Assembly: GCA_027452045.1 (NCBI GenBank)
Contig: DAIDHH010000090.1
Span: 1-41,346 of the forward strand
DNA from: Gammaproteobacteria bacterium
GTDB taxonomy: Bacteria > Pseudomonadota > Gammaproteobacteria > Steroidobacterales > Steroidobacteraceae
DNA: 41,346 bases
Direction: 5' to 3'
Shown piece after piece: positions 15,786 through 17,822 of the stretch (position 1 is the first letter of the stretch; every line of letters begins with the position of its first letter). The notes under the pieces were generated by a model, which saw only the letters and a list, made by a program, of their open reading frames with translations, was not told where the DNA came from and ran no database searches. Position numbers and translations under genes: made by a program.

Positions 15786-16091
15786 TCAGGCTGCCAAAGG
15801 CTTGACTTTCGGGCGCGCGTGCTGTCGCACCTGCCAGAGATCGTACTGAGCCTGAAGATTGATCCAGATGTCCGGCTCAGTGCCGAAGACTCCAGCCAGA
15901 CGCGCCGCCATATCGGGCGAGACGGGCACGCGACCATTGACGATCGCCGACACGTGCTTACGACTCACTCCAAGAGCGTCCGCCGTCTGCGTGATCGTCA
16001 CCCCGAGCGGTCCCATGTACATTTCCTTGAGGATCTCACCGGGATGAGCCGGGCTGTGCATCCGGCCCGAACTCTCAATGATAGTCTTCAT
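15786..16091 (-). CDS. higA: HigA-type antitoxin (XRE family)
   Basis: DNA-binding antitoxin that neutralises HigB and represses the operon. The 101-residue product contains [20 protein letters not shown], the usual HigA opening, then a helix-turn-helix [19 protein letters not shown] and the dimerisation tail [23 protein letters not shown] at 16091 overlaps the 3' end of higB by 17 bp; an in-frame ATG at 16103 and an internal one ([11 protein letters not shown]) are alternatives. The toxin-first order is typical of higBA. The protein probably binds the inverted repeat at 16355-16371. Confidence 0.9.
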
Positions 16092-16344
16092 AATCCACCT
16101 CATGTGCGTGTCCGTCTTCGAAACGGAACGTCACGCGGTAATTCTCGTTCACCCAAACGGAGTAGCGGCCGCCATGGAGCGGATGAAAGCGCATCCCAGG
16201 CATCGCCATCTGCGCCGCTTGGGTCGCGGCATTGAGGGCGGTAAGGATCAGGTTCAGGCGTTTCGCGTGCTTCGGTTGCACCTTGCGAGCATTCCCTGTC
16301 TCGAAAAGCGCCGCCAGCCCTTTGTGCCTGAAAGTCTTGATCAC
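16075..16344 (-). CDS. higB: HigB-type toxin (RelE/ParE superfamily mRNA interferase)
   Basis: Ribosome-dependent mRNA endonuclease of a type II toxin-antitoxin pair. The 89-residue product begins [20 protein letters not shown], the standard HigB opening, and ends with the core strands [19 protein letters not shown] and [17 protein letters not shown] with the terminal DYH. The catalytic-site residues typical of HigB (basic residues and the C-terminal His) appear present. GTG start at 16344, with no other in-frame start before residue 46. No Shine-Dalgarno is present, and the predicted -10 box lies only 7 bp upstream, suggesting a leaderless message. Intact, so probably an active pair within a region otherwise full of remnants. 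Confidence 0.9.
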
Positions 16345-16351
16345 GGCGCAC

Positions 16352-16380
16352 AGTGTAACCTAATCGGTTACTATCCGCAA
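16352..16380 (-). promoter_or_regulatory. higBA promoter with overlapping operator
   Basis: On the minus strand TTGCGG (complement of 16375-16380), 17 bp, then TACACT (complement of 16352-16357): a fair sigma-70 promoter. A perfect inverted repeat GTAACC-TAATC-GGTTAC at 16355-16371 lies over the spacer and -10 box, where a bound HigA dimer would block RNA polymerase. A further GGTTAC half-site is at 16388-16393. Confidence 0.7.
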
Positions 16381-16409
16381 CCTACATGGTTACAGTGATT
16401 AACGTGCGA

Positions 16410-17546
16410 TCAAGGTTTTGGACGATGGGTCATAATGTCCACGGACCCCATCTCGGCAGCGCCGTGTGATCGCAATTCTCGCCGCAGGAGCGAGGGATCC
16501 GTTCCGGCGGCAAGCAATCGCCGCGCAGCCTGGTGACGGACTCGCGCCTTCTCTAGCGGGACGTCCGGGTAGACGCCCAGCGCGAGCGTCTTCTGTTTCC
16601 CCTTGAAGCGGCAGTTATACCGCCAATAGCGGCCGCCGGTCGGCGCTGCGAGCAGATATAGGCCACCTCCTTCCGAGAACTTTCGCGCCTGTCGCACCGG
16701 GCGGATATGCCGAATCCCGCTGGCAGCTCGGCGAGCCTGCCTCTTTCTCCTGCTCGTCGTGAGTTCTGGTGCGTTGGCGGTTGATACGTCCGACGGCTCC
16801 ATTTTTGGCTCGCGATTCGTTGCACCGCTGTCCGCCATTGCCAGATCCCATAACTGCTTCAGGGAAGTCGCGCCGGGACCTTCCCCGTTGGCGAAGGAGA
16901 ACTGCCCCTTGCGAATACGATGTGCCGGTTCGATGCCGGCGAGTGTAATGGCCGCGGTTCCGAAGGACTTGAGTTCCAACATGGATGCACAGCGGCTCTT
17001 GATGGCCCGATGGTCCTGCTCGATGATGTTGTTGAGATAGCGACGATCTCGCACCACTACCCGCTGCCACCTCGGGTCTTCCTCGCCGAGCATCCGCAAC
17101 GCGAGGCGGCTGGCCTGATTGCCGTCTAAGTTGATCTTGCGCGGCCACTCCGTAGCATTCCTGACCGCCTTGCGAAAAAACGCCTGCGCCGCATCCCGGC
17201 TGCGATCCGCGCAGAGCAGGTGATCGACCGATTTACCCTGCCGGTCAACCGCCCGGTACAGGTAGTGATTGCCGCCGCGCACGGAGATGGCGGTCTCGTC
17301 CATCCGCCCTGAAGAACCCACGGCCTGTGCATAGCGTGCCCAGCGCTTTTCGAATTCCGGTACATACCGCAAGACCCAGCGCAAGATTGTGGTATGGGAG
17401 ACGGCGATGCCCCGCTCGGCCATCATCGCGACCAAATCGCGGTAACTGAGCCGGTATGTGATGTACCAGCGGACGCAGAGCTCGATTATTTCGGCGGGAA
17501 AGCGGCGCCGGCGGTAGATCCGGTCGCGTGCGACGGCTCTCGTCAT
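16410..17546 (-). CDS. Chimeric protein: IS6-family transposase fused to the N-terminal arm-binding domain of a P4-type integrase
   Basis: 378 residues. Residues 1-240 are an IS6-type DDE transposase: helix-turn-helix YRLSYRDLVAMMAERGIAVS, then catalytic D83 (GRMDETAISVRG), D141 (KINLDGNQ) and E176 (NNIIEQDHRAIKSR), closing with GIEPAHRIRKGQF. Residues from about 277 match the DUF4102 arm-type DNA-binding domain of P4-like tyrosine integrases: IRHIRPVRQARKFSEGGGLY, then GGRYWRYNCRFKGKQKTLAL, GVYPDVPLEKAR. The core-binding and catalytic integrase domains are absent. The IS left terminal repeat (16761-16781) falls at codons 256-262, so the frame runs out of the element into the flanking integrase gene without a stop. 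The catalytic triad is intact, so the transposase half could still work. Confidence 0.85.
   Translation of the reverse strand: MTRAVARDRIYRRRRFPAEIIELCVRWYITYRLSYRDLVAMMAERGIAVSHTTILRWVLRYVPEFEKRWARYAQAVGSSGRMDETAISVRGGNHYLYRAVDRQGKSVDHLLCADRSRDAAQAFFRKAVRNATEWPRKINLDGNQASRLALRMLGEEDPRWQRVVVRDRRYLNNIIEQDHRAIKSRCASMLELKSFGTAAITLAGIEPAHRIRKGQFSFANGEGPGATSLKQLWDLAMADSGATNREPKMEPSDVSTANAPELTTSRRKRQARRAASGIRHIRPVRQARKFSEGGGLYLLAAPTGGRYWRYNCRFKGKQKTLALGVYPDVPLEKARVRHQAARRLLAAGTDPSLLRRELRSHGAAEMGSVDIMTHRPKP
16761..16781 (+). repeat. IS6 terminal inverted repeat, 3' side of the transposase
   Basis: Pairs with the complement of 17587-17607 (16 of 21 positions). It lies inside the chimeric reading frame (codons 256-262), marking where IS sequence ends and integrase sequence begins. 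Confidence 0.7.
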
Positions 17547-17586
17547 TCGACACCCCCTCGCAAGGAGGCCCGAATTCTACCTGCCG

Positions 17587-17607
17587 ACCCTCAATGCACC
17601 GGAACCC
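17587..17607 (-). repeat. IS6 terminal inverted repeat, 5' side of the transposase
   Basis: Complement reads GGGTTCCGGTGCATTGAGGG plus T and matches 16761-16781 in inverted orientation. It lies about 40 bp upstream of the transposase start at 17546. Confidence 0.7.
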
Positions 17608-17645
17608 AAATATACCCACGAGGAGTCGAGACAGCAAGAAACCGG

Positions 17646-17723
17646 GTGAGACGCCTTGAGAAACTAAACTCTCTGATTCACCGGGTTTTTTTGATATCTG
17701 AGACGGTGTGAGACCGCTTGAGA
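17646..17723 (+). repeat. Direct repeats near tRNA-Ser, possible integrase arm sites
   Basis: Two 16-bp copies, GTGAGACGCCTTGAGA at 17646-17661 and GTGAGACCGCTTGAGA at 17708-17723, identical at 14 of 16 positions and 62 bp apart. They lie between the tRNA 3' end and the truncated integrase, where P4-type integrases have direct-repeat arm binding sites. Role inferred from position only. The same stretch has an imperfect 11-bp inverted repeat (17639-17649 with 17678-17688) followed by seven T on the plus strand, which could be an old terminator. Confidence 0.4.
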
Positions 17724-17731
17724 CAGAAGGT

Positions 17732-17822
17732 TGGCGGAGAGAGAGGGATTCGAACCCTCGAAGGGCTTTTGACCCTTACACCCTTAGCAGGGGTGCGCCT
17801 TCGACCACTCGGCCATCTCTCC
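17732..17822 (-). tRNA. tRNA-Ser (GCT anticodon)
   Basis: On the minus strand it starts GGAGAGATGGCCGAGTGG and ends TCTCTCC-G-CCA. Acceptor arms GGAGAGA/TCTCTCC pair fully. The anticodon arm is CACCC-CTGCTAA-GGGTG with anticodon GCT, reading AGC/AGU serine codons. A long variable arm (about 17 nt) and GGTTCGAATCC T-arm confirm a class II serine tRNA. CCA is encoded (17732-17734). Position next to csrA and alaS is the conserved gammaproteobacterial arrangement; its 3' end abuts the truncated integrase region, consistent with use as an integration site. Confidence 0.97.

Follow-up and report, generated by a model that had tools for sequence, protein, structure and literature searches.

An in-frame fusion of an IS6-family transposase to the arm-type DNA-binding domain of a P4-type integrase in genomic islands of Steroidobacteraceae

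DDE transposases belong to a different class of enzymes from tyrosine integrases. Attachment-site (att) copies of 12–17 bp are a product of tyrosine recombinases and not of IS6 elements, and target selection by Tn7-like transposons is carried out by separate targeting proteins. For IS6 elements, N-terminal zinc-finger extensions have been described, as well as the formation of cointegrates, in which donor and target are joined between two IS copies (PMC7986276); the words "C-terminal" and "integrase" do not occur in the main text of that article. Among the open-licence PMC papers listed by literature searches, no title or abstract opening described a DDE transposase stably fused, under selection, to an integrase arm domain.

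The fused gene and its terminal repeats

The window (the whole stretch of DNA that was analysed, 41,346 nucleotides of contig C90 of a Steroidobacteraceae genome) contains, on the minus strand, a 378-codon gene that runs from an ATG at 17546 to 16410 (16410..17546) and joins an IS6-family transposase in frame to the arm-binding domain of a P4-type integrase. A preliminary description, made from the sequence alone, had proposed exactly such a chimera, and the ORF, the Pfam and NCBIfam matches and recurrence in nine of 217 genomes of the family establish that it is real. The transposase part, delimited by NCBIfam, alignment and dN/dS, covers residues 12–213 (16908..17513, minus strand) and scores 212.7 bits with transpos_IS6 (NF033587; cut-off 125), while Pfam DDE_Tnp_IS240 matches residues 79–215 (8.7e-32). 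The DDE residues D83, D141 and E176, previously said to be intact, are all present in the window copy and, together with the model score, identify an IS6-type DDE transposase. In an eight-row alignment D141 and E176 are invariant; D83 is found in seven rows and is replaced by N in genome G077.

Residues 214–279 (16710..16907, minus strand) form a linker, recognized by dN/dS and pLDDT, that contains the internal right terminal repeat. It is followed by the arm-type DNA-binding domain, residues 280–357 (16476..16709, minus strand), assigned by Arm-DNA-bind_3 (PF13356; 3e-19), by similarity to PDB entries 3ju0 (1.5e-21, with alignment), 3jtz and 3rmp and by dN/dS; it is of the N-terminal, P4-integrase type. 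The structure model of the chimera, built with eight sequences, is weak overall (mean pLDDT 56, pTM 0.28; below 50 at linker residues 239–285), and only its arm (residues 288–360, pLDDT mostly 81–88) was used. The best structural matches of this predicted fold are the arm domains of the HAI7 and HPI integrases, and it superimposes on 3rmp, which going by its title comes from a study of attP recognition, with an rmsd of 0.8 over 63 columns at 40% identity. As the preliminary description had it, the integrase catalytic domain is missing: no tyrosine catalytic domain was found in the chimera, an HMM detected no integrase catalytic domain in the window, and PF00589 has no match anywhere on contig C90. 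The whole fusion was matched at one place in the source genome (a 198-contig assembly, 75% complete). An assembly artefact or chance read-through was considered and ruled out, because the frame is found in independent assemblies and both halves are under selection.

As is typical of IS6 elements, short terminal inverted repeats (TIRs) surround the single transposase gene, the right one lying within the gene. The left repeat (IRL; 17593..17606, minus strand), which reads GGTTCCGGTGC from 17606, was defined by the repeat match and by homology with the integrase-bearing genome G169, which stops at 17607. The right repeat (IRR; 16762..16775, plus strand), which reads AGTTCTGGTGC from 16762, was defined by the repeat match and by conservation of its 14 bp in eight fused copies. 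The two are 845 bp apart, and the frame of the chimera passes through the IRR, so the earlier remark that the gene reads through its own terminal repeat was correct. Among the listed copies of the lineage, 10 of 12 have AGTTCTGGTGC, not a GG-tipped sequence, at this end, and the TIR-bounded unit is 813–849 bp long in copies without interruption or deletion. In the eight fused copies the 14-bp IRR has a mean pairwise identity of 95%, versus 31–50% in flanking, non-overlapping 14-bp windows (ungapped). It is translated in two frames, as NAPEL in the window and G178 copies and as HQNS-like sequences in the other six aligned. These alignments make it appear that the IRR is held as DNA by selection, alongside both protein domains.

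By inspection, no 8-bp target-site duplication is present at the nine lineage copies that have both flanks or at seven armless relatives with both flanks, and its absence thus does not distinguish the lineage. To the right of the arm, no second TIR was revealed when about 2.5 kb around each transposase were scanned with at most one or two mismatches. That the arm is an ordinary component of the IS was ruled out, since this C-terminal extension lies outside the IRR and the IRR of armless relatives is at the corresponding place.

The integrase seat and the islands

An attachment-type tRNA-Ser(GCT) gene (17732..17822, minus strand; ARAGORN) lies just upstream of the chimera and, as had been stated, in the same orientation, with 125 bp from the tRNA 3′ end to the IS left end. 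This interval contains GTCTC direct repeats with a period of about 10 bp (17617..17731, minus strand), predicted arm-type-like sites that are common to full-length integrase islands. Directly before the IRL there is GGTATATTTG (17607..17616, minus strand), with the motif GGTAnnnnTG, which is also present upstream of intact island integrases; this region may be an integrase promoter. In G169, the nearest relative compared (AlaS 94%), the seat is occupied by a full-length integrase frame of 402 codons from stop to stop, and DNA identity with the window is 90.5% from 20531 to 17607, ending exactly at the IRL. The preliminary description was right in placing the gene at the seat of a tRNA-Ser island integrase but not in taking its disablement for a merely local insertion plus deletion.

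Copies of the lineage occupy seats behind tRNA-Ser, guaA and tRNA-Lys. The fused gene lies behind the guaA 3′ end in G019, G021 and G077; in G116 the IRL is 139 bp behind tRNA-Lys. The integrase islands at guaA in G046, G129, G079 and, less closely, G141 (four of the eight guaA integrase loci, those with att in the fetched flank) match the guaA chimera copies at the left end as far as about TGACGGTAAAACTG, and the similarity breaks off precisely at the IRL. The exact break at the IRL is seen in two island types whose intact versions have dissimilar integrases. Between copies at different att sites, homology extends at most about 12 bp upstream of the IRL and, on the other side, approximately to the end of the arm domain. 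In all ten lineage copies for which 10 bp or more upstream are available, including the armless L119 and the arm-truncated L121, the left flank ends in TG, and in seven of these ten it fits GGTAnnnnTG. Of 16 armless relatives that do not belong to the lineage, one fits, namely the guaA copy; two of the armless relatives, L016 and L023, have unsure flanks, their IRL matches containing 4–5 mismatches.

A GGTA-N8-GGTA repeat, possibly an operator or an arm-type site, precedes the start of otherwise dissimilar integrases at all ten loci listed (L132–L136, L138, L140, L152, L153 and L159) and at three of four guaA integrase loci (L330, L378 and L383). Two armless IS6 copies also occur in the seat. 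L119 (positions 15908–16720, in G156) has the IRR tip of the lineage, is located at tRNA-Ser and is basal in the transposase tree; it is either a pre-fusion state or a case of arm loss. L114u (L114, 3628–4465, in G077) is decayed, belongs to a different clade and is found at the same guaA-island motif as the chimera. Thus, elements that lack an arm can reach the seat as well.

In G178, 17 bp of the tRNA 3′ end are repeated exactly at a distance of 8.05 kb from the IRL. Copies of the guaA end lie on both sides of the chimera island in G019 (−141/+3914), G021 (−141/+4513) and G077 (five copies), and only on the right in G134 (contig edge) and G035 (5′ end replaced); for G116, whose contig ends, no far att copy was found. 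The islands so delimited span about 2.7 to 8 kb. In the window, no second copy of a 26-bp probe was found with up to eight mismatches, so the direct repeat of a tRNA island was not recognized there. An HMM built from 19 sequences was applied to 15 stretches from 14 loci and detected no integrase catalytic domain; as a control, an HMM from the same alignment detected the divergent integrase of G046. In each of the genomes G134, G035, G019, G021 and G077, PF00589 has three matches, all of them outside the chimera island, and the G046-type integrase, found in nine of 217 genomes at 1e-100, is present in none of the chimera genomes.

A further gene behind the chimera is common to G019, G134, G035 and G014 (in the last the chimera is deleted); in G019 it is Fic by Pfam, and four genera have a chimera plus Fic unit. 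In the window, a HigB-like toxin gene (16075–16344) and a HigA antitoxin gene (15786–16103; together 15786..16344, minus strand, Pfam/NCBIfam) may represent the cargo of the island. A guaA array of G072 (contig C165), a genome of another genus, contains a pair with 85% DNA identity to this one, and cargo therefore seems to move between the tRNA-Ser and guaA island types. The tRNA-Ser chimera island of G178 (L112, 1617–8026) contains genes for an AEP-TOTE primase, a ResIII-DUF559 helicase-nuclease and a DUF1016/YhcG nuclease, a cargo that looks defence-like.

Tandem arrays of islands (about 1–15 kb) are present behind guaA at L291–L306 and other loci (G167:C35, G158:C47/C62, G086:C4/C45, G072:C38/C165, G146:C11, G050:C502, G047:C82, G105:C30 and more). 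Three HMMs, for the transposase, the arm and the tyrosine catalytic domain, detected none of these domains in the array islands. Viewed by eye, many of the islands have a common right end of about 150 bp, with CTATCG repeats, CAAGCGGAA, TGACGGTAAG and then the guaA-end repeat, and carry HigBA-, Fic- and ATPase-like genes. Their appearance is that of non-autonomous integrative cassettes.

Recurrence, ancestry and selection

The genomes with transposase and arm in one frame (G000, G178, G195, G077, G134, G019, G021, G116 and G035) belong to seven genera, and their number is a lower bound, as are the other counts from this search of first 200 and then 217 genomes, in most of which between 5 and 12 candidates were scored. 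Six of the nine copies are full length and without a stop; G019 has a TGA at codon 24, the arm tail is altered in G021, and the match in G035 begins at about residue 48. Wrecks of the fused lineage were found in G014, G161, G186 and G043. One fused copy per genome was seen among the 217. Arm domains of the fused type without an adjacent transposase match occur at L155 (G186:C21) and L252 (G090:C12).

In a sample of 396 genomes of the order, family members included, all 23 genomes matching at 1e-60 are members of the family, with no match outside it. Among 80 loci retained from a larger number of matches in a collection of 84,980 species, two match the whole fusion, apparently those of G178 and G134. 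None of the best 5000 plasmid records covers 80% of the query in one place, and none of 21 relatives on viral contigs matches past query residue 236.

In a first tree of 45 arm sequences, the 11 fused-type rows lie on one side of a branch (97/97). In a larger tree, to which five rows including the guaA integrase of G046 were added, 12 fused-type rows form one group opposite 38 integrase rows (99/96; 100% of 200 bootstrap trees). This tree has 84 columns and an unresolved root; its integrases are a selection of closest matches rather than all those in the family, and its fused-type rows include the arm-only remnants L155 and L252, both within the guaA subgroup, and the interrupted L124. Damaged fused copies (L126, L127 and L150) and damaged integrases (L160 and L168) were excluded from both arm trees. 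The 37-row transposase tree also places the 14 lineage rows, broken and armless ones included, in one group (100/98) apart from the other 23, and the subgroups uniting the window copy with G178, G116 with G161, and the guaA copies are common to the arm and transposase trees. Since each tree places the lineage in one group, a single fusion event, and hence a single origin of the fused gene, is favoured by the sequences. The arm of the G046 guaA integrase is 29% identical to the window arm and groups apart from the guaA fused arms. In the first arm tree, a 22-row group (100/99) unites the fused arms with 11 integrases, seven at tRNA-Ser(GCT), two at tRNA-Met and two without a tRNA found. The descent of the fused arm from that integrase branch rests on this group, which was not reproduced as a starred group in the larger tree.

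Nei-Gojobori dN/dS in ten pairs was 0.06–0.17 for transposase residues 1–240 and 0.10–0.25 for the arm; for linker residues 241–279 it was 0.52–1.59 in nine pairs, the tenth being saturated, and dS of distant pairs is close to saturation. For the closest pair, G134–G035 (dS 0.3–0.4), the values were 0.17, 0.53 and 0.10 for transposase, linker and arm, respectively. On these estimates both domains are under purifying selection, with the linker near neutral. The preliminary description had regarded the fusion as the result of a local IS6 insertion with flanking deletion and had called for a search for the same join in other genomes. Such joins exist, and the same extension is carried by IS6 copies at guaA, at tRNA-Lys and in other genera. 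Together with membership in one lineage and purifying selection on both halves, its presence at these other loci contradicts a purely local disabling event.

In every one of the ten pairs that can be formed from the guaA-type genomes G019, G134, G021, G035 and G014, the chimera is more similar than AlaS; for G134–G035, identity is 87% at the amino acid level and 77% at third positions, versus 70% and 42% for AlaS. The chimera of these five genomes has thus probably moved horizontally between genera. The G077 chimera shows no such excess over AlaS. The window–G178 pair, with 56% identity at third positions versus 54% for AlaS and 70% versus 82% for amino acids, is compatible with vertical descent.

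Competing explanations and relation to known systems

The sequence comparisons support a fusion gene that is under selection and that, on the simplest view, arose once. The best explanation is that an IS6 transposase with a gained arm-site reader is carried by integrative islands or directed to them. Targeting through the arm would be its most likely mechanism; that this single-origin gene is selected because the arm tethers an active transposase to island arm-type sites is a tentative proposal, which we put a little short of an even chance. On this proposal, an IS6-family element would have inserted just before the integrase gene of a tRNA-linked island, the transposase frame would have joined the N-terminal arm domain, and the remaining integrase would have been lost. 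The module IRL-transposase-IRR-arm would later have occupied the integrase seat in guaA and tRNA-Lys islands, with most module-bearing guaA islands probably having moved between genera. Through its arm, the DDE transposase would be tethered to arm-type repeats next to the att of integrative islands, and it would act on its own TIRs by IS6 chemistry. As donor DNA beyond the IS would accompany a new copy in an IS6 cointegrate, cointegrate formation may take along what lies beyond the IRR and hence the arm. An exact left and a ragged right boundary would result, which fits the limits of homology between att sites. The chimera would be expressed from the former integrase promoter of the island and inherited and transferred together with it. 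Both the binding of the arm to the repeats and the catalytic activity of the chimera are inferred. The armless L119 and L114u argue against the arm being required, and the seat position could instead reflect promoter selection or recombination between islands. Damage to three of the nine one-frame copies (G019, G021 and G035) and the wrecking of others also speak against tethering of an active transposase, as do the lack of 8-bp duplications and of a TIR-like site right of the arm in the scan, the single fused copy seen per genome, and the G077 copy with its D83N and its lack of excess similarity over AlaS.

The chimera might instead have replaced the tyrosine integrase as the mobility enzyme of the island, with the arm bound to attP-type end arrays and the DDE domain excising and integrating. 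The att copies around the chimera islands of G178, G019, G021 and G077, the lack of an integrase catalytic domain in the 15 stretches, the location of all PF00589 matches outside the islands in the five genomes listed above and the recurrent chimera plus Fic unit agree with this. However, att copies of this length are typical of tyrosine recombinases, the island ends showed no TIRs, and the window island has no recognizable far copy; moreover, related guaA cassettes without the chimera have the same right end and att, so an outside recombinase, for example a G046-type integrase, could move the islands. We consider replacement of the integrase unlikely. Equally improbable, in our estimate, is a domesticated protein bound to arm-type sites, where it would regulate the island, lock it, protect it or keep incoming islands out, catalysis being unimportant. 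A single fused copy per genome, selection on the arm and the position of the IRL shortly before the start codon, a site at which a bound protein could repress, would suit such a protein, as would G077, in which the frame is kept despite D83N, consistent with a DNA-binding role. Yet the DDE residues are kept in seven of eight aligned copies, the TIRs are preserved as DNA, and dN/dS of the transposase is as low as that of the arm.

Two further accounts concern the origin of the join. An IS6 insertion with deletion that disabled one integrase and fused the frames by accident agrees with the seat and the absent catalytic half, but it is scarcely credible given seven genera, one group in both trees and purifying selection; contradicted for this locus, it may nevertheless match the ancestral event. 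Very improbable, too, is a hot spot at which IS6 elements inserted independently into many integrases, with each insertion producing its own read-through fusion. The att sites and repeat arrays do differ, armless IS6 copies sit in the same seat, and the guaA fused arm is matched at least as well by the best full-length integrases (up to 61%) as by the fused arms of G116 (51%) and G161 (61%). Nevertheless, the arms of the guaA copies group with other fused arms and not with the distant G046 guaA integrase, the guaA fused arm has only fused-type arms among its ten closest matches, and the arm and transposase trees are concordant.

A DDE transposase that took up an arm-site reader to find or occupy the integrase seat, or that even acts as the island recombinase, is a possible but rather doubtful general reading of the system. 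The chimera resembles IS6/IS26 elements in its transposase model, DDE residues and TIR-bounded unit, and differs from them by the arm beyond the IRR, the right end TGAGTTCTGGTGC and the absence of an 8-bp duplication. It shares with P4-like integrases (HPI and HAI7; PDB 3jtz, 3rmp and 3ju0) the arm fold, the seat behind a tRNA 3′ end, the upstream region and the repeat arrays, but it has neither a core-binding nor a tyrosine catalytic domain and instead carries a DDE transposase N-terminal to the arm. The att direct repeats and tandem guaA arrays recall tRNA- and guaA-associated islands such as GIsul2 at guaA (PMC9376610), whereas in the chimera islands and many cassette-like islands the models detect no tyrosine integrase. 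The proposed guidance of a DDE transposase by a DNA-binding module is reminiscent of Tn7-like transposons, with the difference that the module would here be fused to the transposase and derived from a tyrosine integrase. If the arm does steer insertion, the chimera would be a natural case of transposase retargeting by an added DNA-binding domain and of one mobile element seizing the control seat of another.
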